A stretch of DNA of 64,000 nt. Source: a virus. Below, in pieces: positions 9,619 to 27,885 of the stretch. The notes under the pieces were generated by a model. The model saw only the letters and a program-made list of their open reading frames with translations, made no database searches and was not told where the DNA came from. The position numbers and the translations under genes were made by a program. The stretch is taken from positions 1 to 64,000 of the IMG/VR virus record IMGVR_UViG_3300044732_000452. One strand, given 5' to 3'. Numbering within the stretch: position 1 is the stretch's first letter; every line of letters begins with the position of its first letter.

Positions 9619-10350
9619 TTAGAACTTAATCCATGTCCAGTCCATACCGTGTACAGGTGTTAGTCCCACATGACTTCTTGGTATAAAGTATTTGTCCGTT
9701 TTGATCTTTAATTGATCAACTAGATTACTATACACACTGTCGACCATTACTAGACTTTCTGCGCCTTCTATGATCTTTAGCCAGTCGAAGATGCTGTCAG
9801 TTTCCGCTTTGATATACACTGTTTGCCAGTCGCTGGGTATTATACTGGGATCGAAGTTGGCCGTGTGATCGCTGCCTTCTAGATGTACTACTGCGTATTT
9901 TTCATTGGTAATGATCTTGTCATATAGACGTTGTTCTCTTTGTGCATCACGCTGAATACACTCGCTAAGTTTCCACTTGTTTAAGAATGGTACGCCCGCT
10001 TTGATGTACTTGTATTGATCAAACTTGGTCTGTTGAAAGTACAGTTCTTCGTGGAATTTATGGCCCGTCAGTGCTTGATACAGGGGGATGATCTCGTCAC
10101 AATGAAAGTTCTTCAGGGCCTTCATGGGTTGGTCGTAGAAGAAACTGCCCGGGTCTGTCTGCACTGGAATCCATTTGATCCAGGGTACTGTGTGTTCAAA
10201 GTGCGAGATGAATTCTGTACATATGGGCCACAGAATATCCCAGCCTTGATCGTGATAAAATTTAGCTATGGGCAGAGCTATCACTATGTCGCCTAGACCT
10301 CTTGATTGTACTATGCCCAGTTTGGGTCTACGTGGAGATTTTGCTGTCAT
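9619..10350 (-). CDS. GT-B-type glycosyltransferase-like protein, 243 aa
   Basis: N-terminus after MTAKSPRRPKLGIVQSRG is a Rossmann-type strand-loop (LGDIVIALPIAKFYHDQGWD), the pattern of family 9 (heptosyltransferase-like) enzymes. The second half has VVHLEGSDHTANFDP, DWLKIIEGAESLVMVDSVYS and PRSHVGLTPVHG, matching the nucleotide-sugar side of a GT-B fold. It probably transfers a sugar to phage or host glycan; donor and acceptor unknown. Shorter than usual GT9 enzymes (about 320-350 aa). Start chosen at MTAKS because the longer ORF overlaps the upstream gene. Follows 11117..10359 closely. Confidence 0.55.
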   Translation of the reverse strand: MTAKSPRRPKLGIVQSRGLGDIVIALPIAKFYHDQGWDILWPICTEFISHFEHTVPWIKWIPVQTDPGSFFYDQPMKALKNFHCDEIIPLYQALTGHKFHEELYFQQTKFDQYKYIKAGVPFLNKWKLSECIQRDAQREQRLYDKIITNEKYAVVHLEGSDHTANFDPSIIPSDWQTVYIKAETDSIFDWLKIIEGAESLVMVDSVYSNLVDQLKIKTDKYFIPRSHVGLTPVHGMDWTWIKF

Positions 10351-10358
10351 ATTGTTGA

Positions 10359-11117
10359 TTAAAAGTATTCGCCGCGGGGATGATCCGGGAACCAGCATTC
10401 ATTGCGTTCCTGTGGTAGATCTCTGCGTAGTTCACAGGCCCAGTCCGCTCCCAGTCCTATGGCCAGACTCAAACCTAGGCTTTGATTGCCCACGAACTGA
10501 TCCGCACCCGCAATGACTTCAGCCAACTCCAGTAGGGTCTCTGTGGGATGATAGGGTATGGCCCAGTTGGCAAACTTACAGAACTCTTGATGCTCTTCGG
10601 GTAGACCCACAAACACAGCTCGATCTTCTGCTTGATCACGAATGGCTGTCCAACCTGTTAGACTGTCGGGACTGTTCCAACGAGCGGACCTGTTGACCAC
10701 TATTTCCGCAATGGGCGTGGGCTTGGGCACGGTGAGCCAGGGTTGATTGCGTAAAATTGTGCGCAGACCCGGCTCTCGGATCTTGAATGCTTCTGCGTAG
10801 CAGTCCACATAGTTGCCCGGGTGACCCACGAACAAGGGTCTGAATAGATCCAAATTGTGCGTGATTTCCTCTTTGGGATCCAGTGCATCACAGCGTGTGA
10901 TGTAGTCCTGGGCCAGGAAAAAGCTCTGCATGAAGTCTAGATCTTTTGGGGTCATGCGACCCTGATGGAATGGGTTTGGGGGGCTACCGTAGTAGTGTTG
11001 ACCTATCCAGTCAACTTGATTGAGGTGTAGATAAAATTCTCCACCGCCAAAGTGACGCATTATGGGCAGAGCATATATGATGTCGCCCATGGTACCTGAA
11101 TGTTTGTATCGTTTCAT
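10359..11117 (-). CDS. GT-B-type glycosyltransferase-like protein, 252 aa
   Basis: Starts MKRYKHSGTMGDIIYALPIM, again the GT9-like N-terminal strand with G-D-I-I-x-A-L-P. C-terminal half carries AVFVGLPEEHQEFCKFA, TLLELAEVIAGADQFVGNQS and LGLSLAIGLG, similar to the GADQFVGNQS region of ADP-heptose-type transferases. Part of a leftward pair with the following gene (8-nt gap). A late promoter (TTAAATA at 11126-11132) sits 8 nt upstream of the chosen ATG; the longer ORF start would precede the promoter. Confidence 0.55.
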   Translation of the reverse strand: MKRYKHSGTMGDIIYALPIMRHFGGGEFYLHLNQVDWIGQHYYGSPPNPFHQGRMTPKDLDFMQSFFLAQDYITRCDALDPKEEITHNLDLFRPLFVGHPGNYVDCYAEAFKIREPGLRTILRNQPWLTVPKPTPIAEIVVNRSARWNSPDSLTGWTAIRDQAEDRAVFVGLPEEHQEFCKFANWAIPYHPTETLLELAEVIAGADQFVGNQSLGLSLAIGLGADWACELRRDLPQERNECWFPDHPRGEYF

Positions 11118-11125
11118 AATGTTAG

Positions 11126-11131
11126 TATTTA
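11126..11131 (-). promoter_or_regulatory. T4-type late promoter motif, leftward
   Basis: TAAATA on the minus strand, 8 nt before the ATG at 11117. Divergent from the motif at 11166-11171. Confidence 0.55.
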
Positions 11132-11165
11132 ATCTAAGCTGATTTGTCAATGTCGAGATCAAGGA

Positions 11166-11171
11166 TAAATA
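11166..11171 (+). promoter_or_regulatory. T4-type late promoter motif, rightward
   Basis: GATAAATA context, TAAATA at 11166-11171, 21 nt before the ATG at 11193. No Shine-Dalgarno in the leader. Confidence 0.55.
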
Positions 11172-11192
11172 TCACACTATTGTAACATCATT

Positions 11193-12020
11193 ATGACCTA
11201 TCCACTATATTCCAGTCCATTGACTCTAATCCAGATCGACGACTACAACACCATCTACAACAATGTGGAAGAAATTCTGGGCACGGGCATAGATGGCTAT
11301 GGGTTGACCTGGCTGAACAGTGTGCCCGTGACCAATCGCAACAGGGTCACAGCCCAGGGTTGGCATAACTTGATTGCTGACATTAATCAAATACATCTTC
11401 ACGTACTAAACGTCACTACATCAACAGTGGGCCCCACAACAGGCACTACCCTGGTCTCCACAGCCACACATAATGATCTACACTACAGAGCTCTTTGGCT
11501 CTTGGACGATGTGCGTCGGTACACTTGCCATCCTAGCCAGTACTTCTCAGATGGTGGTAATACTATAGATCGCACAGGCGCTGTGACCACAAGCCCTTAT
11601 AGAGGGGGTGTTAGTACCAGTACAACTACATCATGGGTTGGGGAAATCAGCCATGTGGTCACGGCCAGTTGGACTACTAGCCTGCTAGGTCACTATTTCT
11701 TTAACACTGGGGGTGAGTTTGTTTGGAGCAGTTTCTACGATGACACCACGGGGGTCAACGATCTAGATCAGGAGTGGGCTGCATTTATACTCTATATACA
11801 GGATACCCAGAACTGGAAATATACCAGAACACAGTGGCGCGACACAGCCTGGCCCACTACCAGTACCTACTGGACCAGTGGTACCCTGCAGATCAGCATG
11901 GTAGCACAAAAGGACGTTAACACCGGCAAGGGTGTGGAATTTACCATAACCTATACAGATACCACGGCTCCTGGCTTTATCATCACGCCCAAGACCCATT
12001 TTGAGAACATCGTACTATAA
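11193..12020 (+). CDS. Phage structural protein, 275 aa
   Basis: N-terminus has the pattern YNTIYNNVEEILGTGIDGYG followed by VTAQGWHNLIADINQIHLH, which I recognise from structural proteins of aquatic T4-like phages. The rest is Thr/Ser/Trp-rich and beta-strand dominated (TSWVGEISHVVTASWTTSLL; FNTGGEFVWSSFYDDTTGV), ending GFIITPKTHFENIVL. Likely a tail or baseplate/fibre component. First gene of a rightward late set with 12036 and 12864. Confidence 0.6.
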   Translation: MTYPLYSSPLTLIQIDDYNTIYNNVEEILGTGIDGYGLTWLNSVPVTNRNRVTAQGWHNLIADINQIHLHVLNVTTSTVGPTTGTTLVSTATHNDLHYRALWLLDDVRRYTCHPSQYFSDGGNTIDRTGAVTTSPYRGGVSTSTTTSWVGEISHVVTASWTTSLLGHYFFNTGGEFVWSSFYDDTTGVNDLDQEWAAFILYIQDTQNWKYTRTQWRDTAWPTTSTYWTSGTLQISMVAQKDVNTGKGVEFTITYTDTTAPGFIITPKTHFENIVL

Positions 12021-12035
12021 AAGAGAACAACATAT

Positions 12036-12860
12036 ATGGCAGCGGGAAACTTTAAACTATACAACAACAGTGCAAACACCATCACTGTTACCACATTCTC
12101 TTTTACAATTGACAACACTAAGATACTGCAACACGCGAATCTCACAGTATTTGGAGAGGGCAGTGACATTACCACAACGCCCATTACCCTGGCTAGTCCG
12201 TTGGTGTTGCCCCCACGTACATACAGTTCTGAATTTACCACATTCCATACTTCGGCCACACTGGTCACAGGTGACTATCTCAGTGTTTTAACAGTGTCTG
12301 GTCAGTACCCGGACGCTAGTTCAACTACTACATCAGAGACCACAACAGTGCGTATTTCTGGAACATCGCAGCCAGACCCAGAAGTTCCTTACACACCTAC
12401 AGGTGACGGCGGTGGTGGCGGTGGTGTTTCTTGTGCTGACAGCAACAGTAGTAGTTGCTCGGCCAGCGGCAGCGGCAGCGGCAGCGCCGGTGCTTGCGTA
12501 GTAGCAACAGCGTTGACTACCGCTGGCACTTGGTCTTTATCTGAAAAAATGGAATTAGTAAAGTGGTGCGAAAATGCTTTACATGATACAATGTTAGGTG
12601 AAACATTTCGACGCGGTTATCAGGTTATTGGATCAAAAATCATTCTTCCTTTATTGTTTAAAAACGGAACAAGGTGGACATCTAAATATGTAGAATGGTC
12701 ATTTACTAATGCTACAAATATGTTACGCGGTAACAGATTTAATAAATTATCTATACCAAATAGTGTTGTTTGGTTAGCGGCAATGACTGTAACTGGTGCT
12801 GTTGTAAGTAAAAGATATGCAAGAAAATCGTGGATATCCTTATATAGGAAAAACAAATAA
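12036..12860 (+). CDS. Mosaic structural protein with C-terminal Cys domain, 274 aa
   Basis: Residues 1-125 are a Thr/Ser-rich beta domain (GNFKLYNNSANTITVTTFSF). A Gly linker (GDGGGGGGVSC) and a short (SG)n run follow. Residues about 150-274 form a different domain: ACVVATALTTAGTWSLSEKM, then LHDTMLGETFRRGYQVIGSK and a membrane-like PNSVVWLAAMTVTGAVV, loosely like CFI-box-type C-terminal domains (C-x-x-A-T-A ... LG ... GY). GC content and codon choice drop sharply at about 12530, inside the gene, which points to a recombination junction. Function unknown. Confidence 0.55.
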   Translation: MAAGNFKLYNNSANTITVTTFSFTIDNTKILQHANLTVFGEGSDITTTPITLASPLVLPPRTYSSEFTTFHTSATLVTGDYLSVLTVSGQYPDASSTTTSETTTVRISGTSQPDPEVPYTPTGDGGGGGGVSCADSNSSSCSASGSGSGSAGACVVATALTTAGTWSLSEKMELVKWCENALHDTMLGETFRRGYQVIGSKIILPLLFKNGTRWTSKYVEWSFTNATNMLRGNRFNKLSIPNSVVWLAAMTVTGAVVSKRYARKSWISLYRKNK

Positions 12861-12863
12861 GTC

Positions 12864-14393
12864 ATGGCAAATAATTTTGATACTAATCTAAGAATTACCA
12901 GTTCACTCGGATTTAGAATATCTGGTGGCGCTGTTAAAGGCCCAGTTCCAACATTAGAGACACTGAAATATCTATGGGAACCAGTTAAGAGGGCACCTAC
13001 GGCTGTTACTCAAACAAAGATATTACGAGTAACACCTAATCCCGTTCCTACCTTTGTATTTCCACCAGCTTCGACCAGTACCACAGATCTTGTTTTGCAA
13101 AATCCAACTAACTGGGCAGATTTGTTAAAATGGTACAGTACTGCTACACGACAGACTCTTACCCTACATAATGACGGAAATACTCCTTTGACCGTAGGAG
13201 ACACTGATGGTAATGGTATTAAACGATCTTTTCCTAACGGAGTCTTTCCAATATTTCATACTACCAGTTCCTTTGTTATCCCTCCGGGCGGCAGTCAAAA
13301 CTTTATTATCTCTTATTATGGAACTGAAGTAGGTCAATATTCTAATTTCTTAAATATTGTTTCTGATTTTGATGCTGTAAACTATAAGATACCTACATTT
13401 CAAAATGTAGAACGTACCTTTAGTATGCGTGTAAGTCCCATCACTGCAACTACCACGGCAACACAGCTAGGAGAACAAGTACGTCAAAGTTTTGAAATTA
13501 TGCCCGTATATGATCTAATTGATCAGCCAGATGTACTATTAGATTTTACTACATCGTTTGGAAACAACAACCCAGGATGGAGCATCGTTGATAAAGCCAA
13601 CAATACCTTTACTGTAAGATTGCGTGTGCTAGAGCTAAACAACACACCCGGAACCTATACTAACAATGTAACTATTGCATCTGAAGGCGGTGTTGGAATT
13701 AACTCTGTAGTCACAGTCACTAACATAGTTAATGTAGCTATTGACCTTTCGAGATTTGAATCCTTGGGTTATTGGGTAAGTCCTGCTGCACCGTATAACA
13801 GTGTTATAGGAATGAGTTACGACAAGATTGATCAAGTTAAAGTTCTTACCATAGGTGTAGGTACAGGTGGAGATGGCACAGATTTATATGGTGCTGGTGG
13901 TCAAGTCTTTACAGCAACCAGCACATTGGGCTATCTTGCCACAGCTACAGACTATCCGTATAGTGGATGGGCCACTGTATATAGATTCCCGTTATCGTCT
14001 ACTGGACCTGTACAGCATCTCAGTAGCGCCACAAATAGTGACGGCCTGCCACTGTATAAGGTAAAGAGTACACCAGGATTGGACTACGAAACATCTTTTG
14101 GTTTAGAATCTTCTGTAGGATCTATGTTCATTGTCAATGACGACGGCAACGGAAACGTTAATGTTTCATTAAATCAGTTGAGGGACATATCGGATCTTAA
14201 CAGTGATTTTGATACAACACTAAAAAATCTAACTAGAGCATTCCATTATTATTCGAATGTTGATACTCCGCCTAGGTATTACCAGTTAGACTCCGGCGCT
14301 ATACTTGATGGAACAGTGACACGTAAATTTATAGGATTTGACAATTCGGGTACAGTACTGACCAGCATTGTGTCGCTGCCTAAGAGTTTCTAA
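12864..14393 (+). CDS. Large beta-rich structural protein, 509 aa
   Basis: Starts MANNFDTNLRITSSLGFRIS. Contains a repeated Ig-like arrangement: QTLTLHNDGNTPLTVGDTDG with SFVIPPGGSQNFIISYYGTE (about 95-155), and a second with TFTVRLRVLELNNTPGTYTN (about 250-275), followed by a long beta-rich tail ending SIVSLPKSF. The pattern 'x-L-x-N-x-G-N-x-P-L ... I-P-P-G-x-S' is typical of immunoglobulin-like beta-sandwich modules. Likely virion surface or fibre component. It follows 12036 by 3 nt and shares the AT-rich composition of the genes to its right. Confidence 0.5.
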   Translation: MANNFDTNLRITSSLGFRISGGAVKGPVPTLETLKYLWEPVKRAPTAVTQTKILRVTPNPVPTFVFPPASTSTTDLVLQNPTNWADLLKWYSTATRQTLTLHNDGNTPLTVGDTDGNGIKRSFPNGVFPIFHTTSSFVIPPGGSQNFIISYYGTEVGQYSNFLNIVSDFDAVNYKIPTFQNVERTFSMRVSPITATTTATQLGEQVRQSFEIMPVYDLIDQPDVLLDFTTSFGNNNPGWSIVDKANNTFTVRLRVLELNNTPGTYTNNVTIASEGGVGINSVVTVTNIVNVAIDLSRFESLGYWVSPAAPYNSVIGMSYDKIDQVKVLTIGVGTGGDGTDLYGAGGQVFTATSTLGYLATATDYPYSGWATVYRFPLSSTGPVQHLSSATNSDGLPLYKVKSTPGLDYETSFGLESSVGSMFIVNDDGNGNVNVSLNQLRDISDLNSDFDTTLKNLTRAFHYYSNVDTPPRYYQLDSGAILDGTVTRKFIGFDNSGTVLTSIVSLPKSF

Positions 14394-14401
14394 AAGATTC
14401 G

Positions 14402-14439
14402 GAAGCATTCTCTACTAAGATAATTAGTAGTAATGCTTC
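14402..14439 (+). promoter_or_regulatory. Hairpin that contains the start codon of the 981-aa gene
   Basis: GAAGCATT (14402-14409) pairs with AATGCTTC (14432-14439) and CTACTAA with TTAGTAG inside it, giving a 15-bp nearly continuous helix. The ATG (14433-14435) lies in the 3' arm, so start-site access should depend on melting of this stem. No U-run follows, so it is not a simple terminator. Confidence 0.6.
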
Positions 14440-17378
14440 TAGATCAATACCCCAAAATCAATACAGACCTAATCAAAGAAATCCCCTGGGGAGGGGATGA
14501 GTTTTATTATGACCAACAATTATACAACTTAGGTGAAGGCGATACTGAATTCTTAGTGATAAATCCTTATGCAAGACATTCTAGTGTCTTGAACTTTGTA
14601 AATGATGTGCCTAAAACAAGAAAATGTCTAGTTTGGACATACAAAGGTGAGTGGGTAGCCAAACTGTTTAAAGATGGGTGGCACCCATATGCTGGATATG
14701 AAACACATGAAATAGAAGTACCAAAGAATCACATGTGGGCAAAAACGCCTATCTGGAAAAAGAATTCTGCAATAGCAAGTTCTATTACATTTGAATTTAA
14801 TCCTATAGAAAGTTATGTATATAATCAAGACGATGCTGACTATACGTTAGTTTGGTACATTGATCCTAGAGTCAATCCTTTAGAAGATAAAATATGGGCA
14901 TTTACTTGTGAGGTGCCTGGCGCCAACGTTAAAGGCGAGAAAGACATGGGATACGTTATGCCTGAAATGCGAGTTACATGGAATCCTGATCTTCCTAAAC
15001 TACTCATCGATGTCAACGAATGTTATCCGCCATTTTGGTTTCTGGATTACGTTACTGCACTTGAGCTGGATCCTAACTACAGTCCAAAACCAGGTACTTG
15101 GTTGATTAAGTTTGAACCTAAACGTAAAAAAACTTCTAAATGGGAATGGTTAGGCACAGTTAGTCCTGAGTTTAAAATTGAACAAAATCCTAGCCTACCA
15201 GAAATGCGTTTTGATTTAGATTACGACATTCCTTGGCACGATCTAGCCTATGAACATATATGGTATCTAGACAAAGAAATAAACGGGGAGAAGATTTGGG
15301 CTTTGAAAATTACTCCCAGTGCAGAGATTGTGGGTGTTAAAGAAATAGGAACAGTTACTCCTCTGATTGCCGAAACACTGGATGTAATCTTTATTAGTTA
15401 CCATGAATCTAATGCAGAAGAGAATTGGCAGCGTGTTTTAGAAAAAGCACCACATGCCAAACGTGTGGATGGTGTTACTGGTATCTTTGAGGCACATAAG
15501 GCAGCGGCTAAGTTATCCAAGACTGACATGTTCTATGTAGTCGACGGTGATGCTTACTTAGTCGATGACTGGCAGTTCGACTACCAACCAGAGATATTTG
15601 ATAGAGACTGTACATACGTCTGGCACAGTAAGAATCCTGTTAATGATTTAGAATATGGTTACGGTGGCGTTAAATTATTCCCTAAGCGGGCATTTGGCAA
15701 AATCAAAGTTTGGAAAACATTAGACCTACTGACGACTATTGTTCCTAAATTAAAAGTCTTCGATAAAGTCAGTAACATTACAACATTTAACACAGACGAG
15801 TTTGCCACATGGCGAAGTGCATTTAGGGAAACAATTAAGTTATGCAATACCATTGCACAAGATCCCGATAATGCTGAAGCTATTGATAGATTGGCAGCAT
15901 GGGAGACTCTGGGAGTAGATAGGCCGTTCGGTAATTATGCATTATCTGCTGTACATTCTGCTAAAGAGTTCTTTGATGCAAATAAAAATACACCAACATT
16001 ACAACAAATAAATAACAGGTCCTGGTTACTCACAATGTTCAACTCAAAAAAAATAACTGCCTTCGATTACAAACCTATTAAAATTGTCAAAAAAGAAGAT
16101 GTAGTTGCAGTTGCAACAAATACAACCACAATATGTGCAGTGCCCTGGATGCATCTTGCATTTGAACCTAGTGGAAAAGTAATTCCGTGTTGCCTAACCT
16201 CTGTACATAATTATTTTGCTGGTGATCTAACACATCAGAGCATTGAAGAAATTTGGAACAGCGGCAATATGAAATCTTTAAGAAAAGATATGATAGGGGG
16301 CAAAGAGCCCGAAATATGCCGTAAATGTTTTGATAGAGAACGGGTCACTGGTGAAAGTGGTCGTTTCTATCACAATAGAGACTTTCCAGAGGTAGTAAAA
16401 AAAATTCCAGAAATTACACTAGCAGACGGAACATGCACTACTATGGAGTTGAAGTATTGGGATTTCCGTTTTAGTAATCTTTGCAATTTTAAATGTCGTA
16501 GTTGCGGACCACGTTACAGTTCAGCATGGGTGCCGGATGCTAAAAAATTAGGCCTCACTGATCAAGAAAAAATATGGAGCATCGAATCAGTAGATGATAA
16601 GAATAACTTTGATTTTCTAAAAGATCAAATTAACCATGTGGAAAGAATTTACTTTGCTGGAGGCGAACCTCTACTCATGCCTGAACACTGGCAAATTTTA
16701 GAAATGTTGGTAGAAAAACAACGATTTGATGTTAAACTATCATATAACACAAATGCATCAGTGTTATCTTATAATAAGAAAAATGTTATTGACTACTGGC
16801 GGCGATGGAACTTTGGCAAATTAGAAATATGGCCCAGTATCGATGAAGTTGGAGAACGTGCAGAACTCATTCGAGCCGGCACTGTATGGTCTAAGGTTGA
16901 GTCAAATCTAAAAGAATTGATGACATTAGATAATGCTATCATACGCCCGGGTATTACTGTAGGTGCTTGGAATGTTGGCAGATTTCCTGAAATTATTAAA
17001 CATTTGATTTCAATAGGAGTTATACGTCAACATCCTAAAACCAAATTTATTAATTACAATAATTTCTTCATCAATTTGTTAGAACATCCTTCACATTATC
17101 ATGTTAGTATTCTACCCGATGATTATCGTGCAGAGACTGTAATTAAATTAGAAACTTTTGTCAAAGAGCACAACGAAACATATAATACAAGCATAGATCA
17201 TCTTTTAACACATATCATACATGAATTAAAAAAACCATTTGATTTAACATCAGCAAAGAAATTTGTAACAGTGACGGAACAATTGGATAAGTTAAGAGGT
17301 GAGAATACTTATGAAATCATACCAGAAATGAAATTAGTGTTAGAAGCAACAAGGAATAATGAATATGGACAAGATTGA
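14433..17378 (+). CDS. Multidomain radical SAM fusion protein, 981 aa
   Basis: Three regions are visible. Residues 1-310: beta-rich units repeating the theme WYIDPRVNPLEDKIWAFTCE ... MGYVMPEM and again WYLDKEINGEKIWALKI ... IGTVTPL. Residues about 315-440: a GT-A-like domain, DVIFISYHESNAEENWQ with DxD-like VVDGDAYLVDDW and WHSKNPVNDLEYGYGGVKLF. Residues about 565-900: radical SAM, with an N-terminal auxiliary Cys set (CAVPWMHL, PCCL, CRKC) and the [4Fe-4S] motif LCNFKCRSC (CX3CX2C, about 684-691) and FAGGEPLL. Substrate unknown. Overlaps the next gene by 20 nt, indicating coupling. AT-rich relative to genes left of 12.5 kb. Confidence 0.75.
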   Translation: MLLDQYPKINTDLIKEIPWGGDEFYYDQQLYNLGEGDTEFLVINPYARHSSVLNFVNDVPKTRKCLVWTYKGEWVAKLFKDGWHPYAGYETHEIEVPKNHMWAKTPIWKKNSAIASSITFEFNPIESYVYNQDDADYTLVWYIDPRVNPLEDKIWAFTCEVPGANVKGEKDMGYVMPEMRVTWNPDLPKLLIDVNECYPPFWFLDYVTALELDPNYSPKPGTWLIKFEPKRKKTSKWEWLGTVSPEFKIEQNPSLPEMRFDLDYDIPWHDLAYEHIWYLDKEINGEKIWALKITPSAEIVGVKEIGTVTPLIAETLDVIFISYHESNAEENWQRVLEKAPHAKRVDGVTGIFEAHKAAAKLSKTDMFYVVDGDAYLVDDWQFDYQPEIFDRDCTYVWHSKNPVNDLEYGYGGVKLFPKRAFGKIKVWKTLDLLTTIVPKLKVFDKVSNITTFNTDEFATWRSAFRETIKLCNTIAQDPDNAEAIDRLAAWETLGVDRPFGNYALSAVHSAKEFFDANKNTPTLQQINNRSWLLTMFNSKKITAFDYKPIKIVKKEDVVAVATNTTTICAVPWMHLAFEPSGKVIPCCLTSVHNYFAGDLTHQSIEEIWNSGNMKSLRKDMIGGKEPEICRKCFDRERVTGESGRFYHNRDFPEVVKKIPEITLADGTCTTMELKYWDFRFSNLCNFKCRSCGPRYSSAWVPDAKKLGLTDQEKIWSIESVDDKNNFDFLKDQINHVERIYFAGGEPLLMPEHWQILEMLVEKQRFDVKLSYNTNASVLSYNKKNVIDYWRRWNFGKLEIWPSIDEVGERAELIRAGTVWSKVESNLKELMTLDNAIIRPGITVGAWNVGRFPEIIKHLISIGVIRQHPKTKFINYNNFFINLLEHPSHYHVSILPDDYRAETVIKLETFVKEHNETYNTSIDHLLTHIIHELKKPFDLTSAKKFVTVTEQLDKLRGENTYEIIPEMKLVLEATRNNEYGQD

Positions 17379-18708
17379 TCAATTAAGAACAGAAATTATT
17401 GAAAGTGAGACATTTTGTTTTTATCCTTTTACACAACTAAGTTCTAATCCCGCTGGCCACCTTAAACCGTGTTGTAATTATGTAGGAACAATGACACACC
17501 CGAACGGAGATATCATTAGCATTTTATCCGGGGATAATTTTAGTGATGCGTGGAACAGCGAACACCTTGTTGATTTAAGAAAAAAATTACATACAGGAGA
17601 TACTCCTGATGCTTGCAGGCGTTGCATTCGAGACGGCGACGTTAGTATGCGTACACGGTCAATTGAAGATTATAAAAATAATCGAAAAACATTAGAGATA
17701 GTTGCCAACAGCATAAACAACAGTTACGAAGTGTTACACCAACCAACATATTTAGAATTAAAGCCTAGTAATTTGTGCAACCTTAAATGTGTCATGTGCA
17801 ACAGTTACGACAGTAGTCAGATTGCTAAAGAGTTAGGTGAACTTAATAATAAATTTGGTGGCATCAAAGTATTAGATGGAAGATTTATTGAAATTTCCAG
17901 TGTGTTTGGAATCACTGAACATAATAAAACATGGAAAGATGTCGAACATCCCGATTGGTCTGATAATGAAGAAATATGGGAAAGTTTTACAAAATTAGCA
18001 CCTGGACTAGAAGTATTAAGTTTTGCCGGTGGTGAACCTACAATTATGCCATTTGTGTTAAAGGCACTGCAATATGTTGTAGACAATGATCATGCTAAAA
18101 ATATTACTGTATTTTTGTCCAGTAACTTTACAAACCTAAATAAAAACTTTTTAGAGTTAATGCCTAAGTTTAAAAAGTTTGAACTCATTGCCAGTATTGA
18201 CGGGTTTGATAAAGTCAACGATTATGCTAGATATCCTAGTAAATGGCGCCAGGTATCAAAGAATTACATTGAAGCAAAGAGTTATATGAAACACAGCAAT
18301 GTTAAGATATTGAATAATATCACCGTTAGCTCATTGAACATTGTTAACTTAGATAGCCTATTATATTTTATAGAAGAACAGGCCAAAGTGCATCCATACT
18401 TTAAAGAGTGGCCATATAACATCAACTTAATTATGTTTCCGATGGAACAACAAATATCAATGTTACCACAGTCTCTGAAAGATTTAGCTACACAGAGATT
18501 AACAGCATATCTAGAAAATAGTCAAGTCATTAAAGATTTTCCCGGACTAGATGGAAAGATACACTTGTTATTAAATGAATTAACCAAGCCTGACAATCCG
18601 AAACTGTTTAAGGTATTCAAACATAGAATTAAAATACTTGATGACCATAGAGGAATTTCAATCGGCGATTATATTCCAGACTTGAAAGATGCTTTTAAAC
18701 ATGACTAA
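17359..18708 (+). CDS. Twitch/SPASM-type radical SAM protein, 449 aa
   Basis: N-terminal auxiliary cluster motifs CFYPFTQLSSNPAGHLKPCC and CRRC precede the radical SAM motif LCNLKCVMC (CX3CX2C, about residues 139-146); SFAGGEPTIMP supplies the SAM-binding GGE motif. The arrangement, with Cys motifs before the core, is the one seen in phage 'twitch-domain' radical SAM proteins. Probable redox enzyme using [4Fe-4S] and S-adenosylmethionine to modify an unknown peptide or other substrate. Two in-frame ATGs (17359, 17365) both lie in the preceding gene. Overlaps the next gene. Confidence 0.8.
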   Translation: MNMDKIDQLRTEIIESETFCFYPFTQLSSNPAGHLKPCCNYVGTMTHPNGDIISILSGDNFSDAWNSEHLVDLRKKLHTGDTPDACRRCIRDGDVSMRTRSIEDYKNNRKTLEIVANSINNSYEVLHQPTYLELKPSNLCNLKCVMCNSYDSSQIAKELGELNNKFGGIKVLDGRFIEISSVFGITEHNKTWKDVEHPDWSDNEEIWESFTKLAPGLEVLSFAGGEPTIMPFVLKALQYVVDNDHAKNITVFLSSNFTNLNKNFLELMPKFKKFELIASIDGFDKVNDYARYPSKWRQVSKNYIEAKSYMKHSNVKILNNITVSSLNIVNLDSLLYFIEEQAKVHPYFKEWPYNINLIMFPMEQQISMLPQSLKDLATQRLTAYLENSQVIKDFPGLDGKIHLLLNELTKPDNPKLFKVFKHRIKILDDHRGISIGDYIPDLKDAFKHD

Positions 18709-19936
18709 GACATATTGCCCGTTAGCATGGAATCATTTTTCTACACACACTGATGGCAATATGCGTCTTTGTTGTAATTCTACTAATGCAGGAAGATTAA
18801 AGAAAGATGGCAAGTTTGTAAAAATAAATGAGATAACAAGTTTGATTGAATTTTACAATATTGATCAATTAAAAAATATAAGAAAGAAAATGATAGACGG
18901 CGAGCGGGTGGCCGAGTGCCAGCATTGTTATAATGTTGAGGACAATGGGGGTGAAAGTGTTAGAAATTGGTTTGTAAAGAGATGGCCGATTGAAGATATT
19001 ATAACAAACACTGAAATGCATACGGGCAAGTTAGAATCTGTTGATGTAAATTACTTAGATTTAAGTTGGTCGAATAAGTGTAATCTACAATGCAAGATGT
19101 GTACCCCGGGAGCTAGCGATCAACTAATAAAAGAATTTAAATTCCTCAACATTAAACCATGGGGTGAAAAAGAAAGTGATTATAAAGCTCAATGGAACTA
19201 TGATCAAATTAAACATATCCTTGACCTAGTAAAGACTGACGGATTAGTGCAGATATTAGTAACCGGTGGTGAACCATTAATCAACAACGATTTTTATACA
19301 TTTTGTAAAGAACTAATTAGTTCAGGTTTATCTAAACAGGTTGACTTATCTATACATACAAATTTAACTGTGACACCGTCAAAATGGTTTGACATCTGGA
19401 GCCATTTTAAGACTATGACTATTAAAGTAAGTATTGATGCTGTTGCTGATATGTACGAATATATTAGATATCCTGGAAAATGGAACATTGTTAAAGATAA
19501 TATTGATAGCATAGTTCAATATTCGAATGAAAACGAAAATATTGGTATCGAGTTTCACACTGTGTTTTCTATTTTTAATACACATAAATTTACAGAATTG
19601 TTAGATTATATTGTGAGGTTGGAAGGAAAGAATATTTTAAACTTTCCTCACATAAATTATATCTACGATCCAAGCTATGCATCCCCGAGTAATTTACCAA
19701 CAGCTTATAAAAATACAGTGTATCAAGAAATTGCAACCTGGTTTGAAAACAATAGAGAACTACTTGAAAAAGATGCAGTTAAAGAAAAGGCTAACATATT
19801 GAGTGCAATGATTACATTTTTAATCGGAACACCTGAGTCAGATATAAATTTTAAAAACAGTGTTTCGATAATAAAAAAGATGGATGCTTATCGAAATCAC
19901 AATACAGAAAAATATTTGCCGTGGTGGAAAAATTAA
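18701..19936 (+). CDS. Twitch/SPASM-type radical SAM protein, 411 aa
   Basis: Third radical SAM gene in a row. N-terminus MTKTYCPLAWNHFSTHTDGN and LCCN, then CQHC, supply auxiliary Cys residues; the core motif KCNLQCKMC lies at about residues 126-133 and VTGGEPLINN gives the GGE motif. Start taken at MTKTYC, which overlaps the previous stop by 8 nt; the slightly longer MLLN start has no signal. Divergent paralogue of its two neighbours, so the trio may act on the same or successive substrates. Converges with the leftward methyltransferase gene at 19940. Confidence 0.8.
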   Translation: MTKTYCPLAWNHFSTHTDGNMRLCCNSTNAGRLKKDGKFVKINEITSLIEFYNIDQLKNIRKKMIDGERVAECQHCYNVEDNGGESVRNWFVKRWPIEDIITNTEMHTGKLESVDVNYLDLSWSNKCNLQCKMCTPGASDQLIKEFKFLNIKPWGEKESDYKAQWNYDQIKHILDLVKTDGLVQILVTGGEPLINNDFYTFCKELISSGLSKQVDLSIHTNLTVTPSKWFDIWSHFKTMTIKVSIDAVADMYEYIRYPGKWNIVKDNIDSIVQYSNENENIGIEFHTVFSIFNTHKFTELLDYIVRLEGKNILNFPHINYIYDPSYASPSNLPTAYKNTVYQEIATWFENNRELLEKDAVKEKANILSAMITFLIGTPESDINFKNSVSIIKKMDAYRNHNTEKYLPWWKN

Positions 19937-19939
19937 CTG

Positions 19940-20722
19940 TTAGGTATATTTTATAAAATTAGTTCTATCCCAGTCCGGACCACGAAACTCCATTCTGTCA
20001 TCAGTCCATCCTATGGGTTGATACCCGTAACAATCAAAATCCTGAGGATAAGTTGTTTTAGTTATAGTTACAGGATATTTTCGGTCTTTCATATCTTTAG
20101 ATAATACATCTATGCAAAACGTTTTATAAAAATCAAATGCTGGCGGTCTGCATAGATATGCTTTATTACATTGACCAACTAAAAACATTTTTAAATTTAA
20201 TGGATGTTTTTCTAAATATGAAAAAGTGCTAGCTGTAACCTGAGGAAACATGGTTGAAAAGAAATCATCAACAATAACAACTCCATAGTCAGACAAAAAA
20301 TGATCAGCTAAAATTAAATCTTTATAGCATTGTGCATAACTATGATCGCCATCAATATGAAACCATGAATAATCGCGAGAATGTTCTTGAAAAATAGAAT
20401 AATGAAAATGCACCAAACTGTTAGAATAATCATTTATTAATCTTAGATTTAATCCCTCAATCTTTGATAGTAAATTTGAATAAGTTGTGTCCATCCATTC
20501 ACCGGGATCTACAATCACCTGCTGTGTGTTGTTGGCCTGTGCATATAGCCCACTTAGCATTGCAGACTTTCCATGTAATACACCTATTTCTAAAAAATTA
20601 CGCACAACTTTATTTTCGGTTTGATAACCTAATAACGAGTCCCATACTAATGCACTGGGAAATTGTAAGGACCCTGGTATATCTTCAGATATAACATTAT
20701 ATTGATTTAAAAAACTTTTCAT
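19940..20722 (-). CDS. Class I SAM-dependent methyltransferase (Methyltransf_24-like), 260 aa
   Basis: SAM-binding motif I is FLEIGVLHGKSAMLSG (about residues 43-58), an acidic strand VIVDPGEW follows, and WFHIDGDHSYAQCYKDLILA with VVIVDDFFS gives the later motifs. This arrangement fits small-molecule or sugar methyltransferases of the Methyltransf_24 type. The C-terminus has Pro/Tyr-rich segments. Starts within the stop of the B12-type radical SAM gene (ATGA overlap), so both form one leftward operon. Acceptor unknown. Confidence 0.7.
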   Translation of the reverse strand: MKSFLNQYNVISEDIPGSLQFPSALVWDSLLGYQTENKVVRNFLEIGVLHGKSAMLSGLYAQANNTQQVIVDPGEWMDTTYSNLLSKIEGLNLRLINDYSNSLVHFHYSIFQEHSRDYSWFHIDGDHSYAQCYKDLILADHFLSDYGVVIVDDFFSTMFPQVTASTFSYLEKHPLNLKMFLVGQCNKAYLCRPPAFDFYKTFCIDVLSKDMKDRKYPVTITKTTYPQDFDCYGYQPIGWTDDRMEFRGPDWDRTNFIKYT

Positions 20723-22683
20723 TTTTTAAAATCTATTTCTGTGTAATTAACTATCTTAATAGGGATAACTTTGCTAGGCTCCTCTAAAACAGTTATTAGT
20801 TTTGGCCAACCAACTTGATCTCCATCTAAATGAGTGCCGTCGAGGTGTATTACAATACAATCATTTTCAAAATTATCTTCAACTCTAATTATTTTTCTTG
20901 TTTGAAGATCTGAAAACTGTACAATTTTACCAACTGTTAATTCTTCTAAAATGTAAGGAACATGTGAAAATAATATTGCAGGCCCCCAATTTCTAGCAAC
21001 ACCATTTAACCAATTCTCATCCGAATGCCGGCTAATTGCATAAACATTTGAACTTGGGGTACTTTTTAAGAAACCTGAATATTCGAATAAAAACTTTTTA
21101 GCTATTTGATCTTCGGGATGATCTTTAACCCATTCTGTGTAATAGTATATTGCTTTTTCTGGTTGACCTATTGCAATATAATATTGGGCAATGACTTGAT
21201 TTCTATTGAGAAGATATGTCGACGGATAAGTGGTTTTTATACCTAAGTCGGAAACTAATCGACAAAAATCTTCAAATCTTTTTAATCGAACTAGGAATGT
21301 GTTATTACCATCTACACTTTTCCAAAAAGTTCCGCCGAGTGTTTTGTCAATACCGAATTTTTCTGCGTTCTCCCATCCAGGAGTTCCGTTAGCAAATCCG
21401 CAAAATGCTGCACTGGGATTTACATATAATTTATTTTTTGAATTACGTCTTAAAAACTCTAAGACCATTAATGAATCTTCTTCAGTTTCTCCCGGTAACC
21501 CAAACATGACATTGTAAACTGCATTAAGTCCGGTCCTTGCATGAGATTCAGCAATTTTATCAATATCGGCACCTTTTGATAATAACTTTCCTACACTCCT
21601 CATAAGTGTAGGGTTTGGAGTTTCTAATCCGTAGGCCATGACCACACATCCGGACTGTTTTAATTTTATCATCAGTTCTTCGGTCATTTCTTTTCTAATA
21701 ACTGCCTGTCCGGCCCATTGTATTTTAATTTTATTTTCAATGAGGTATTCGGCAAACTTTTCAATTGCGCTTATCTTCCCGTTACATAAACTATCTTGAA
21801 AGTCAATAAAGTCAATTTCAGGATATAATTTTAATTGGTACTTAACTTCTTCAATCATGCTTTCTGCAGACCGAAATCGATATGATTCCCAATAAGGTTG
21901 CTCATTACAGAATATACATTTATTAGGACACCCTCGACTAGACGCCATTGGTAATCGTGTTGGGGATAGGTAAGGAGCTAATGAAAAATCACTGTAGTGG
22001 GGTATCGGAAGAGTGTCGATTTTTGGAATCATTGGCCTTGTTGGAGTAGCATGTACTGCTCCGTCTTTAAACACTAACAATCCAGGGCAATCGAGCAATG
22101 ATTGATTTTTTCGAACACGCTCAATTATGTCTACTAATGTTTCTTCTCCCTCAGCCTGGGCGACTGCATCTATTAACGGATTTTTTGCCAAAACATTACC
22201 AGCTAGATATCGGTGGGCATGAGGACCACCGACAATAATCTTTAGCTCAGGCTTACGTGCTTTGAGCAGTTTGATAAGATGCATCGAAGTATGCATTGAA
22301 GTGTTGTATAAACTAAATCCAACTAATGGTGTATTAGTCGACACCACTAACTCGACAAAGTCATCAATTTCTTTTTTGTATTCGGTTAACAGGTCATTAA
22401 CGCAGTCTTTAGATTCCCAAAACCACTGAGATTGATCTATGTCCCACATTATGGAAAATTTCTCAGGTCTAATAGCAAAAAATTCAACATTTAAATCTAA
22501 TGGTAAAATCTTGTATCCTTTCTGCCGAACATAGGCTGAAAGTGATGCTAAAGAAAGCGGAGCTGTTTGCACTCCCCATCCAGGTGCCTGGACTAGTATT
22601 ATATCGGGATTGTTCAAATTACCATGATTTGTAGTTGAATTTGGAAAAACATCAGTTAGTAATTGTATAGATCTATCAGGCAT
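20719..22683 (-). CDS. B12-binding-domain radical SAM protein, 654 aa
   Basis: N-terminal cobalamin-binding-like domain (ILVQAPGWGVQTAPLSLASL; KIIVGGPHAHRYL, about 30-200), then the radical SAM motif SRGCPNKCIFC (CX3CX2C at about 251-258), MFGLPGETEEDS, and a C-terminal extension with a TPR-like pair (YYIAIGQPEKAIYYYTEWVK). This order is typical of B12-dependent radical SAM methylases and related enzymes. The C-terminal 100 residues are beta-rich and unusual. Late promoter motif TAAATA 5 nt before the ATG. Coupled to the methyltransferase downstream. Confidence 0.8.
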   Translation of the reverse strand: MPDRSIQLLTDVFPNSTTNHGNLNNPDIILVQAPGWGVQTAPLSLASLSAYVRQKGYKILPLDLNVEFFAIRPEKFSIMWDIDQSQWFWESKDCVNDLLTEYKKEIDDFVELVVSTNTPLVGFSLYNTSMHTSMHLIKLLKARKPELKIIVGGPHAHRYLAGNVLAKNPLIDAVAQAEGEETLVDIIERVRKNQSLLDCPGLLVFKDGAVHATPTRPMIPKIDTLPIPHYSDFSLAPYLSPTRLPMASSRGCPNKCIFCNEQPYWESYRFRSAESMIEEVKYQLKLYPEIDFIDFQDSLCNGKISAIEKFAEYLIENKIKIQWAGQAVIRKEMTEELMIKLKQSGCVVMAYGLETPNPTLMRSVGKLLSKGADIDKIAESHARTGLNAVYNVMFGLPGETEEDSLMVLEFLRRNSKNKLYVNPSAAFCGFANGTPGWENAEKFGIDKTLGGTFWKSVDGNNTFLVRLKRFEDFCRLVSDLGIKTTYPSTYLLNRNQVIAQYYIAIGQPEKAIYYYTEWVKDHPEDQIAKKFLFEYSGFLKSTPSSNVYAISRHSDENWLNGVARNWGPAILFSHVPYILEELTVGKIVQFSDLQTRKIIRVEDNFENDCIVIHLDGTHLDGDQVGWPKLITVLEEPSKVIPIKIVNYTEIDFKK

Positions 22684-22688
22684 AGCGG

Positions 22689-22694
22689 TATTTA
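22689..22694 (-). promoter_or_regulatory. T4-type late promoter motif, leftward
   Basis: TAAATA on the minus strand with 5 nt to the ATG at 22683, so no space for a Shine-Dalgarno. Confidence 0.55.
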
Positions 22695-22736
22695 TTAAAT
22701 AAAATACTGTTATATTAACAACATTTGATCTCTCAG

Positions 22737-22742
22737 TAAATA
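22737..22742 (+). promoter_or_regulatory. T4-type late promoter motif, rightward
   Basis: TAAATA about 50 nt before the ATG at 22793, divergent from the motif at 22689-22694. Confidence 0.4.
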
Positions 22743-22792
22743 GATGCTATATTTAGGGTTCCTAGTCTTGAAAAAAATATTGAAATTAAAGT

Positions 22793-23344
22793 ATGATAGT
22801 GAATAAGGATGCATTTAGTAGCGGTCAAATAGGAAGTAAGATTTGGCTCTGCGAAGAATTAGAAAAACTTTTTGATTCTGTCGATAGTATTTGGATCTAC
22901 GGCGGATGGTATGGAGTAACAGCGTTCCTATTAAACAGTCGAGGCAATATACAGATTGGAAAGATACGCAGTTACGACGTTGATCCAAAATGCGAAGCTG
23001 TGGCGGACATGATCAACGAGAATTGGGTTATAGATAACTGGAAGTTTAAAGCTAAAACCCAGGACTGTAATCTACTTGATCTGGACTGGCACGGCCCAGA
23101 TTTGGTTATAAATACAAGCACCGAACACTTCGAAAGTTTGGATTGGTGGAACAGTATCCCAAAAGGAACCACTGTAGTACTTCAAGGCAACAATATGCCG
23201 CACGAAGACCACCACATACACAGCAGTAGTTTAGACGAGTTCATCGGGACTTATCCAGTTAGTAACCTACTGTACCGCGGCCAAAAAGACTTTGAGTACC
23301 CCACTTGGAAGTTCTCAAGATTTATGCTTATTGGCATTAAGTAA
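22793..23344 (+). CDS. SAM-methyltransferase-like protein, 183 aa
   Basis: Rossmann-type core: SIWIYGGWYGVTAFLL (motif I-like, about 33-48), IRSYDVDPKCEAVADM with an acidic D after the second strand, and DLVINTSTEHFESLDWW near the active site, followed by TTVVLQGNNMPHEDHH. Small phage proteins of this type are usually annotated as class I methyltransferases. Methyl acceptor unknown. Isolated gene between the divergent operon and the lysis pair. Confidence 0.6.
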   Translation: MIVNKDAFSSGQIGSKIWLCEELEKLFDSVDSIWIYGGWYGVTAFLLNSRGNIQIGKIRSYDVDPKCEAVADMINENWVIDNWKFKAKTQDCNLLDLDWHGPDLVINTSTEHFESLDWWNSIPKGTTVVLQGNNMPHEDHHIHSSSLDEFIGTYPVSNLLYRGQKDFEYPTWKFSRFMLIGIK

Positions 23345-24968: not shown

Positions 24969-25132
24969 TAATTGTACCCTCTGCTATTATCTAATTCTAT
25001 GCACTCTGGACATTCGCAGTCCGGGCAGTATTCGCATTCAGTACAACTATGATTGCAGTGTGCAGGACATCCGCATTTGCATTTAGCTGTAAATCGTTTG
25101 TAGTTTTGAAAGTCATCCATGTATTGTTCCAT
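24968..25132 (-). CDS. Cys-rich mini-protein, 54 aa (metal-binding candidate)
   Basis: Not listed by length-limited gene finders. Ten Cys in 27 residues: [13 protein letters not shown] followed by [14 protein letters not shown], with one His pair flanking. Such a density is typical of metallothionein-like or zinc/iron-binding peptides. AGGAGAAAAAC ribosome site, and a perfect TATAAATA late motif upstream. Translated with the following gene (TAATG). It lies back to back with an Fe-S carrier gene, so a metal-related role is plausible but unproven. Confidence 0.7.
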
Positions 25133-25150
25133 GTTTTTCTCCTGCTTGGA

Positions 25151-25158
25151 TATTTATA
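25151..25158 (-). promoter_or_regulatory. T4-type late promoter, leftward, perfect consensus
   Basis: TATAAATA on the minus strand, 18 nt before the ATG of the Cys-rich gene; back to back with a rightward motif 3 bp away. Confidence 0.65.
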
Positions 25159-25161
25159 GTG

Positions 25162-25167
25162 TAAATA
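25162..25167 (+). promoter_or_regulatory. T4-type late promoter motif, rightward
   Basis: TAAATA, 5 nt before the ATG at 25173. Confidence 0.5.
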
Positions 25168-25172
25168 GTAGT

Positions 25173-25496
25173 ATGATCAACATAACATCAAATGCTAAGA
25201 CAAAGATTACAGACCTCCTAATGGAGGAAAATAATCCAAAACTTGCCTTAAGAACCTTTGTACAAGGTGGCGGCTGTTCTGGATTTAGTTACGGATTTAC
25301 CTTTGATGAAGAATTTAACGAAGATGATTTCCAATTTCCAATTGGTGAATTTAAAGTCGTAGTAGATGCTATGAGTATGCAGTATCTACAAGGTGCCGAA
25401 ATTGATTACAAAGAAGATCTTTCCGGATCTAGCTTTTCAATAAAAAATCCAAACGCTCAATCCACTTGCGGCTGCGGCAGTAGCTTCTCCATTTAA
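25173..25496 (+). CDS. IscA/ErpA-type iron-sulfur carrier protein, 107 aa
   Basis: The A-type carrier signature is complete: C35 in [13 protein letters not shown] and C99/C101 in STCGCGSSF, the three ligands that hold a transient [2Fe-2S] or [4Fe-4S] cluster for delivery to client proteins; the SGFSYGF and CGCG blocks match the family, and 107 aa is the normal length. Start set at MINITSNAK because the family begins there; the longer ORF overlaps the divergent promoter. Likely clients are the four phage radical SAM enzymes at 14.4-22.7 kb. Confidence 0.85.
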
Positions 25497-27345: not shown

Positions 27346-27375
27346 AAAAAAGCACCTTACGGTGCTTTTCTTTTA
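27346..27375 (+). terminator. Rho-independent terminator, probably bidirectional
   Basis: AAAAAGCACC-TTAC-GGTGCTTTT stem-loop (about 27347-27369) followed by T-rich sequence; A-run on the other side, so it can serve both the IF-1 operon and the opposing HNH gene. Confidence 0.85.
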
Positions 27376-27885
27376 TCCTAAGTAGTTGGCCCACGATGGG
27401 TGTGGTATATCCCACTTTTGCTGTCTACGCTTGTCTACTAATTGATAGTAGGTGGGCTTAACTGGCTTGTGCTTTGGCACAATCTTCTTGTCGTTACCCT
27501 TGTTTGCATTACAGCTCGCGCAGGCGCAGACAGTGTTTTCAAAGGTAGTCTTACCACCGTGACTAACTGGCAGCACGTGGTCTAACGTGGCTGTTTTACG
27601 GCTTACATCATCCCCACAGTACTGGCATGTATAGCCATCACGAAGGAACACATTATGTTTGGAATAACGAATTGCAGTCTTGCGCTTTTCGTACTCGCGA
27701 AGAATCATAACGGCAGGAACCTGTGTTTCCCAGTTTGCACTATGCACGACCCAATTATCGTAGACATCTAACACAGTGGCTTTTTCAAGCACTATGAACT
27801 TAATAGATTCTTCCCAGGAAATTGTGCTCAACGGTAGCCAAGAAATCGGGGCTCCGTCTGCATTTAACAATAATGTCGAACTCAT
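27373..27885 (-). CDS. HNH endonuclease, 170 aa
   Basis: Zinc-ribbon HNH core: YTCQYCGDD (first CxxC), TLDHVLPVSHGGKTTFENTV with the catalytic D-H and the N of the HNH fold, and CASCNANKGN (second CxxC). N-terminal 80 residues include STISWEESIKFIVLEKATVL, the usual N-domain of this phage HNH type. Probably a free-standing homing or packaging-related nuclease. Overlapping TATAATAAATA upstream may give both early and late expression. Confidence 0.9.
   Translation of the reverse strand: MSSTLLLNADGAPISWLPLSTISWEESIKFIVLEKATVLDVYDNWVVHSANWETQVPAVMILREYEKRKTAIRYSKHNVFLRDGYTCQYCGDDVSRKTATLDHVLPVSHGGKTTFENTVCACASCNANKGNDKKIVPKHKPVKPTYYQLVDKRRQQKWDIPHPSWANYLG

Follow-up and report, generated by a model that had tools for sequence, protein, structure and literature searches.

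A predicted glycosyltransferase–radical SAM fusion and its cassette behind tail-tip-type genes in a large environmental phage

Virus record IMGVR_UViG_3300044732_000452 (IMG/VR; 67,667 bp) is a phage contig whose first 64,000 nucleotides (nt) are analysed here (the window). Between positions 14433 and 22683 the window carries four radical S-adenosylmethionine (SAM) enzyme genes, the first of which encodes a protein that joins a domain with a modelled GT-A glycosyltransferase fold to a radical SAM enzyme of the N_Twi_rSAM family. Genes of these two families recur as close neighbours in related viral contigs, and in one phage group they follow tail-tip-type genes in a fixed order. The gene set is tentatively interpreted as a soluble cassette for glycan attachment and radical tailoring, with tail-tip proteins of the phage itself as its most probable target. 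The original prediction for this locus, an unknown modification system, is thereby supported at the level of enzyme residues, fold and conserved neighbourhood. The same phage is also represented by a 207,813-bp contig (G001), which matches the window in two blocks at 99.98–99.99% identity and differs from it by 69 bases in length in a repeat region near 44.8 kb.

The fused enzyme and its gene set

Three rightward genes (14433–19936) are joined by 20-nt overlaps, and all three products score far above the curated 170-bit cut-off of the NCBIfam model NF033640 (N_Twi_rSAM; Table 1). Each contains a CxxxCxxC motif, a GGEP motif and five N-terminal auxiliary cysteines, and Pfam SPASM is above its cut-off in two of the three; in a 58-row alignment of the first domain (rSAM1), the three cysteines and GGE are invariant. 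The three proteins are accordingly predicted to be radical SAM enzymes, in agreement with the earlier description of three consecutive, coupled twitch/SPASM-type enzymes. The coordinates and gene calls of the locus proved correct. The SAM-cluster residues that had been singled out for checking are present in the sequences, and the first enzyme is modelled with a radical SAM fold.

The N-terminal half of the fused enzyme has no family match in Pfam, NCBIfam or PHROGs, and its profile has no sequence match in the PDB at E-values up to 1. A structural model of residues 1–560, built from 41 rows (mean predicted local distance difference test score [pLDDT] 91.2), nevertheless contains a GT-A fold spanning approximately residues 313–453. 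The best Foldseek matches in the PDB are the S-glycosyltransferases SunS and ThuS (E = 6e-5), followed by polypeptide GalNAc-transferase 2, PcManGT, TarP and others. In VIA-align, other GT-A enzymes score much like ThuS, with B4GALNT1, WrtF and ThuS at Z-scores of 10.5–11.1 and root-mean-square deviations of 2.9–3.3 over 136–141 residues. Residues D371 and D373, which form a DxD motif, are retained in at least 90% of the 41 rows. On the strength of the model, this half is a GT-A glycosyltransferase by fold, with sugar transfer as its predicted activity, and the earlier call of a GT-A-like domain fused to a radical SAM enzyme holds despite the lack of a family match. The N-terminal 310 residues form a repeat region that is also found in eight stand-alone GT-A proteins. 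The N-terminal repeats of long GT-A proteins (L100:8336–11230, L164:2–3022 and others) resemble degenerate partial GT-A cores; the L100 protein has three extra matches to the GT-A hidden Markov model (HMM), and GT-A proteins range from about 220 to 1222 amino acids.

In the radical SAM half, positions 10–102 of an rSAM1 profile built from 62 relatives match BtrN residues 163–257 (E = 7.9e-7), which we take to be the BtrN twitch domain, and the core of the profile matches MoaA, viperin, SkfB and cytosylglucuronate decarboxylase. The rSAM1 model, from 58 rows, reaches a pLDDT of 92.7, and its nearest folds include BlsE (first), viperin, anSME, SuiB, SkfB and DesII. BtrN, BlsE and DesII are radical SAM enzymes that act on cyclitol or sugar substrates. 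The BtrN twitch domain matches the N-terminal domain of the window enzyme, whose auxiliary domain is N-terminal, unlike that of BtrN, BlsE and DesII. Identities are 18–22% to BlsE and 13–18% to DesII, too low for the substrate of rSAM1 to be inferred from them.

Facing these genes is a leftward pair (22683 to 19940) with a 4-nt overlap, in which a B12-type radical SAM enzyme (B12-binding 54.1 bits, cut-off 32.1; Radical_SAM 49.5 bits, cut-off 29.5) is coupled to a Methyltransf_24-type enzyme, as originally described. The B12 enzyme has the GGEP motif and the radical SAM cysteines. Its closest sequence relatives are TokK and CysS, which are C-methyltransferases, and it may itself be a C-methyltransferase. 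The Methyltransf_24 protein has no PDB sequence match. The HMM of the B12 radical SAM enzyme also matches two other G001 proteins.

Some of these similarities would also fit a pathway like that of ribosomally synthesised and post-translationally modified peptides (RiPPs), in which the radical SAM enzymes would cross-link, epimerise or methylate a phage peptide or fibre and glycosylation would be a second step, as in glycocins. SunS and ThuS are peptide glycosyltransferases, the rSAM1 model has anSME, SkfB and SuiB among its structural relatives, and the best NCBIfam matches of the B12 enzyme are the RiPP families ApyD (113.7 bits against a cut-off of 750) and rSAM_ocin_1 (112.9 against 281.85), both far under their cut-offs. 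The first fold match of rSAM1, however, is BlsE, a cytosylglucuronate decarboxylase. A precursor peptide was not recognised originally, and none was seen among open reading frames (ORFs) of at least 60 amino acids; the gene set is preceded by a gap of 39 nt, contains one of 3 nt and is followed by one of 109 nt. A small protein family of the relatives, sm6 (105–126 amino acids), was considered as a precursor and rejected, as it is conserved along its whole length and absent from the window phage. Such a pathway is considered improbable.

Neighbourhoods of the two families in viral and bacterial contigs

Scanning viral contigs with rSAM1 recovered 74 loci, and scanning them with the GT-A domain 64. 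A set of 137 loci (L039–L172, L008, L010 and L017, the last from Vibrio phage K566) forms 65 clusters, of which that of the window phage is the only one common to both scans. N_Twi_rSAM spans of at most 250 amino acids were left out, giving a 127-row alignment from 158. Counted per cluster, a GT-A gene is found in 22 of 44 fetched rSAM1-scan loci and an N_Twi_rSAM gene in 13 of 21 from the GT-A scan (49/63 among raw GT-A-scan loci, L110–L172). The 65 representative loci contain 69 separate GT-A genes, of which 57 share their locus with an N_Twi_rSAM gene and 32 directly adjoin one. Among 26 same-strand pairs, 19 overlap and two more are at most 2 nt apart. Within the rSAM1 subfamily (at least 60% identity), 18 of 42 separate genes lie directly behind a GT-A gene. 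Besides the window phage, L100 has a fusion of the two families, and L272 has a gene that carries both labels.

Among 16 contigs of at least 80 kb from both viral scans, with duplicates of the window phage left out, 15 have a GT-A gene, 15 an N_Twi_rSAM gene above cut-off and 14 both, so the scattered, non-conserved neighbourhoods that would have spoken against a common system were not seen. In 14 control genomes, N_Twi_rSAM matches occur under the cut-off in all 14 and above it in none. A distance test was restricted to above-cut-off radical SAM matches, with weak or repeat-region GT-A matches excluded and contigs G009 and G021 left out. The families lie within 5 kb of each other in 10 of 14 contigs, against 2.0 expected; contig G019 exceeds this threshold by 155 bases. 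With one contig per lineage (G014, G016 and G018 dropped as repeats on the authors' reading) the count is 7/11 against 1.56 expected (P = 2e-4), and without the window phage 6/10 against 1.44 (P = 9e-4). Divided by scan, the counts are 3/5 (0.63 expected, P = 0.016) and 3/5 (0.81 expected, P = 0.030). The 281,658-bp contig that holds L134 (G017) has 18 N_Twi_rSAM matches, nine of them above cut-off.

A tblastn search of 50,697 cultured phage records with single representatives of c2, sm6, the window VIR4 and the 22793 family, and with two of the GT-A family, gave no match, and the fused protein matched only two Vibrio phages, through its radical SAM half. PHROGs likewise gave no match to one representative each of GT-A, c2, sm6 and the 22793 family. 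The N_Twi_rSAM-type genes of Vibrio phage K566 (six matches, of which two exceed the cut-off) alternate with glycosyltransferase genes, two of them GT8 above cut-off and one GT4-like under it. Such interleaving with GT8 and GT4-like genes characterises the Vibrio jumbo phages K566 and K567, but the GT-A family of the window is missing from the K566 stretch.

Immediately ahead of the gene for the fused enzyme stand tail-tip-type genes of the VIR4 family (Table 1). A scan for VIR4 gave at least 600 stretches and 556 confirmed relatives, of which the best 80 were fetched with flanks of only 7 kb and formed 58 clusters. Wherever at least 4 kb of downstream sequence was available, sm6, c2 and GT-A genes were all present (50/50), with an N_Twi_rSAM gene in 36 of 50; wherever 4 kb of upstream sequence was available, a gene of the FIB3 family was present (39/39), together with none of seven other counted families. 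Since the seeds were cassette-bearing and the fetched loci were the closest 80 of 556, these counts describe a fixed order in one phage group and not a general rate. The c2 family weakly matches glycogenin (GT8; E = 0.0015), and its DxD motif is invariant in seven rows. The VIR4 relative in L100 matches, at 33% identity over 65%, a gene of PA5oct-like Pseudomonas phages, in which VIR4 (L100) and FIB3 relatives are adjacent and lie beside a T4-like gp10 gene annotated as 'baseplate wedge subunit and tail pin'. The window VIR4 copy does not match that PA5oct-like gene.

In a genome-contig scan, N_Twi_rSAM relatives were found in Bdellovibrionota, Bacteroidota, Elusimicrobia and others; a first scan of genome contigs with profile A2 had given no matches. 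The 104 relatives were reduced to 78 loci containing 192 N_Twi_rSAM family genes by HMM, up to nine per locus. GT-A relatives are strong in four of the 78 loci, which lie on phage-like contigs, and weak in one. Neighbours were sampled after leaving out ten loci (four phage-like, six redundant). From genes of 150–650 amino acids, at most two per locus, the scan covered 95 near the family (196 were eligible) and 91 far from it (211 eligible). GT2 occurs in 4 of the 95 near genes and is not among the 25 families shown for the 91 distant genes, and ChaN-type haem-binding genes account for 5 of the 95. These weak and mixed neighbourhoods were set aside as a functional pointer: the N_Twi_rSAM family alone does not imply glycans, and it is the phage neighbourhood that points there.

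Possible acceptors, known phage systems and competing readings

Glycan tailoring of some kind is probable. A glycan context is favoured because of the GT-A fusion, the other glycosyltransferases beside N_Twi_rSAM genes and the nucleotide-sugar enzymes of the phage. Contig G001 encodes a nucleoside diphosphate (NDP)-sugar epimerase/dehydratase overlapping a cytidylyltransferase, plus GT2 and GT1 enzymes, and a second site combines a methyltransferase, a GT34, an N_Twi_rSAM enzyme, two proteins without a Pfam match and an Asp_Arg_Hydrox protein. The activities, step order, sugar and acceptor that we infer for the cassette are as follows. The GT-A domain would transfer a sugar from a nucleotide sugar, perhaps supplied in part by the phage NDP-sugar enzymes, to a cytoplasmic acceptor. 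The fused and adjacent N_Twi_rSAM enzymes might then perform C–H radical chemistry on the sugar or the sugar-bearing residue, with oxidation, epimerisation, deoxygenation or cross-linking as candidate reactions, and the B12 radical SAM and Methyltransf_24 enzymes could add methyl groups. The acceptor would most likely be a tail-tip protein encoded directly upstream (VIR4 here, VIR4/FIB3 in relatives), so that adhesins would be decorated before assembly. Tail-tip proteins are a plausible but uncertain acceptor. It is somewhat doubtful that the system amounts to virion glycosylation in the full sense, in which one fused polypeptide and its neighbours would carry out both glycosyl transfer and radical C–H chemistry and give adhesins sugars, or residues bearing sugars, whose bonds lie beyond the reach of ordinary sugar enzymes, as a constant component of the tail-tip module across a large environmental phage group without cultured members known for these genes.

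Several observations weigh against glycan tailoring of tail-tip proteins. In VIA-align, the GT-A matches tie with nucleotidyltransferases of the same fold (IspD, MobA-type), and the structural neighbours of rSAM1 mix nucleotide and sugar enzymes with peptide modifiers. Coupling is incomplete: 22 of 44 rSAM1-scan clusters lack a GT-A gene within the fetched locus, 8 of 21 GT-A-scan clusters lack an N_Twi_rSAM gene, G021 (210 kb) has a GT-A gene without N_Twi_rSAM and G009 the reverse, and the two families are 53–88 kb apart in G008, G012 and G022. In the rSAM1 subfamily, 24 of 42 genes are not behind a GT-A gene, and 17 of these 24 stand behind a gene of the c8 family, at most three genes away, which is a second context of the subfamily, without GT-A. 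Virion membership of VIR4 rests on the annotation of distant relatives, and the 50/50 count downstream of it is a biased rate; the window phage itself lacks relatives of sm6, c2 and FIB3. In bacteria, N_Twi_rSAM contexts are mixed, with a weak enrichment of glycosyltransferases.

The main alternative is remodelling of host surface glycans, in which the cassette would alter lipopolysaccharide or capsule, for example to exclude competing phages. This is the reading proposed for pelagimyophage glycosyltransferases in the same type of region, in the accessible part of that report (PMC7029224), and it would suit the NDP-sugar enzymes, GT1 and GT2 of the phage as well as the position of the cassette beside tail genes. 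On the other side stands the absence of a polytopic membrane protein. By a simple hydropathy window, transmembrane (TM)-like segments occur in none of 375 genes downstream of VIR4 and in none of the window genes of at least 100 amino acids from 9619 to 23344; in the first locus set they occur in 2 of 293 genes inside the cassette, compared with 33 of 704 elsewhere. The polytopic membrane flippase/glycosyltransferase of seroconversion (gtrABC-like) systems accordingly has no counterpart at the window locus or among those 375 genes. The hydropathy test would miss peripheral glycosyltransferases that work on lipid carriers. Overall, surface remodelling is judged rather unlikely.

Modification of phage DNA or nucleotides, with glycosylated or radical-modified bases, is very improbable. 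Phage glycosyltransferases can modify DNA, according to the accessible text of PMC12619734, and a protein elsewhere in the phage has weak HUP-domain matches (QueC and AsnB, under cut-off), but the cassette stands with tail genes in the maps made.

Radical SAM gene sets as such are known from phages, and the original view that a set of this kind is unusual in a phage genome is only partly borne out. As far as the accessible text of the sources extends, reports of phages carrying around a dozen radical SAM genes go back to 2010, with no tested function assigned (PMC2853527). Campylobacter phages CP220 and CPt10 have 11 and 12, and thus, as in the window phage, many radical SAM proteins in one phage; five of the genes belong to an exchangeable module, which adjoins a putative glycine amidinotransferase gene (PMC2853527). 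Their enzymes are not among the phage matches of rSAM1 or rSAM3, a result obtained without a direct comparison of kinship. Further sets occur in Campylobacter phages CC_R7 and IBB_35 (PMC12398825, PMC3322345). In the T4-like phage TARA_ERS488813_N000010, 12 radical SAM genes are accompanied by an ATC gene for an Fe-S carrier, and the window phage likewise combines many radical SAM genes with such a carrier; the accessible text describes neither gene order nor glycosyltransferases of that phage (PMC5332604). Another related arrangement is the host recognition cluster of pelagimyophages, a single variable region with tail fibres, several glycosyltransferases and radical SAM cassettes, which resembles the window locus in combining tail genes, glycosyltransferases and radical SAM genes; the accessible part of that report names radical SAM genes only as added cassettes and describes no fusion or N_Twi_rSAM–GT-A pairing (PMC7029224). 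Pelagimyophages are T4-like; G001, a record that may be a fragment, has no Gp23 match. Radical SAM and glycosyltransferase genes are also enriched in Tasman Sea phage samples (PMC7150976), and mycobacteriophage virions are reportedly glycosylated, according to citations in PMC12619734 and PMC11256854; these statements, too, follow the accessible text. A search of the open-access literature, which does not extend to subscription papers and preprints, found no report of glycosyltransferase–N_Twi_rSAM coupling or fusion; within that scope, this coupling is the feature of the locus not seen in print.

The Campylobacter module is read in its source, as far as accessible, as an interchangeable metabolic module (PMC2853527), and by analogy the cassette could serve accessory metabolism of the host, making cofactors or small molecules with no relation to surface or virion. 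More radical SAM, oxygenase-like (by eye) and HUP-domain genes between 64 and 98 kb of G001 would accord with this, but the constant position after tail-tip-type genes in one group of phages and the repeated pairing with glycosyltransferases leave accessory metabolism with little probability. For glycan tailoring, the link to a single glycosyltransferase family, fusion included, defines a specific and testable class of substrate and a place of action. If the acceptor is an adhesin, the cassette would give phages a new means of diversifying receptor binding or shielding the tail, and would be a source of carbohydrate-active radical enzymes of a new kind.

Flanking genes and the wider phage genome

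Coordinates of the locus and its flanks are given in Table 1. The flanking assignments of the original prediction gained no support from family and profile searches. The two leftward genes at 9619–10398 and 10359–11162, described as GT-B-like, have no significant profile match in Pfam, NCBIfam, PHROGs or the PDB (best PDB profile E-values 0.37 and 0.23, to unrelated proteins). The gene at 22793–23344, described as a further SAM-methyltransferase-like gene, has no Pfam, NCBIfam or PDB profile match and a single PHROG match of unknown function (E = 0.062). Its family, MTc5, is nonetheless a recurring companion, with 27 members in 25 loci, near GT-A or N_Twi_rSAM genes in many maps. The Fe-S_biosyn protein is presumably an A-type carrier and could possibly supply clusters to the radical SAM enzymes.

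Table 1. Features of the window in and around the radical SAM gene set
Feature	Position	Strand	Basis
Conserved flanking gene c39	9619..10398	-	Common to L115, L116, L117
Conserved flanking gene c53	10359..11162	-	Common to L115, L116
VIR4-family protein, probable tail-tip/virion component	11193..12020	+	VIR4 HMM, E 7.5e-55; same gene in G001
Protein between the two VIR4 genes	12036..12860	+	Position only; no Pfam match
Second VIR4-family protein, 509 amino acids	12864..14393	+	VIR4 HMM, E 4.3e-72; directly upstream of fused enzyme
Fused enzyme, 981 amino acids	14433..17378	+	Residues 1–310 repeats, ~313–540 GT-A, 565–967 N_Twi_rSAM
Predicted GT-A domain with DxD (D371, D373)	15369..16052	+	Model, fold matches, conserved motif
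First N_Twi_rSAM domain (rSAM1)	16125..17333	+	NF033640 352.6 bits; profile; model
Second predicted N_Twi_rSAM enzyme, 449 amino acids	17359..18708	+	NF033640 305.7 bits; cysteines intact
Third predicted N_Twi_rSAM enzyme, 415 amino acids	18689..19936	+	NF033640 324.2 bits; cysteines intact
Methyltransf_24-type SAM methyltransferase, 260 amino acids	19940..20722	-	Pfam 46.8 bits (cut-off 26.3)
B12-binding radical SAM enzyme, 654 amino acids	20719..22683	-	Pfam; CxxxCxxC at 252
MTc5-family protein	22793..23344	+	Methyltransferase-like by eye only; recurring cassette companion
Fe-S_biosyn protein	25119..25496	+	PF01521, E 2.4e-18

Fibre proteins with Gly-X-Y repeats had been named as possible targets. 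Collagen-like stretches are present in four window proteins (28252–30951, 34191–35882, 35906–40528 and 43136–45184), three of which match tail-fibre PHROGs strongly and the fourth weakly. Such fibres were rejected as a general target: of the loci examined, which extend at most about 10 kb to each side, only the window and L117 have stretches of at least 12 strict triplets. An HNH endonuclease gene (27373–27885, minus strand) lies just ahead of a collagen-like fibre gene.

Proteins resembling SGNH hydrolases by eye (L008:11152–12735; cluster c14, for example L052:18380–19189) recur beside radical SAM genes, and the two tested have no Pfam match. In G001, positions 64000–82000 form a second biosynthetic-looking island with short proteins resembling 2-oxoglutarate oxygenases (by eye), desaturase-like and HUP-domain proteins, and a radical SAM gene that matches the B12 HMM.

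The Gp23 major capsid protein (PF07068) was matched in 8 of the 16 long contigs and not in G001, records that may be fragments. Rfam gave no match in window positions 1–24000. The first 9600 positions of the window differ in character: G+C content is 0.42–0.49 there and 0.35 in the cassette, listed ORFs are short and many lie on the minus strand, and the longest stop-free run is 272 codons under translation tables 11 and 4, rising to 327 if TAG is read through and to 855 if both TAA and TAG are. The window has no tRNA genes, and 39 are found in a single array at positions 83070–92415 of G001 (L032:3070–12415).

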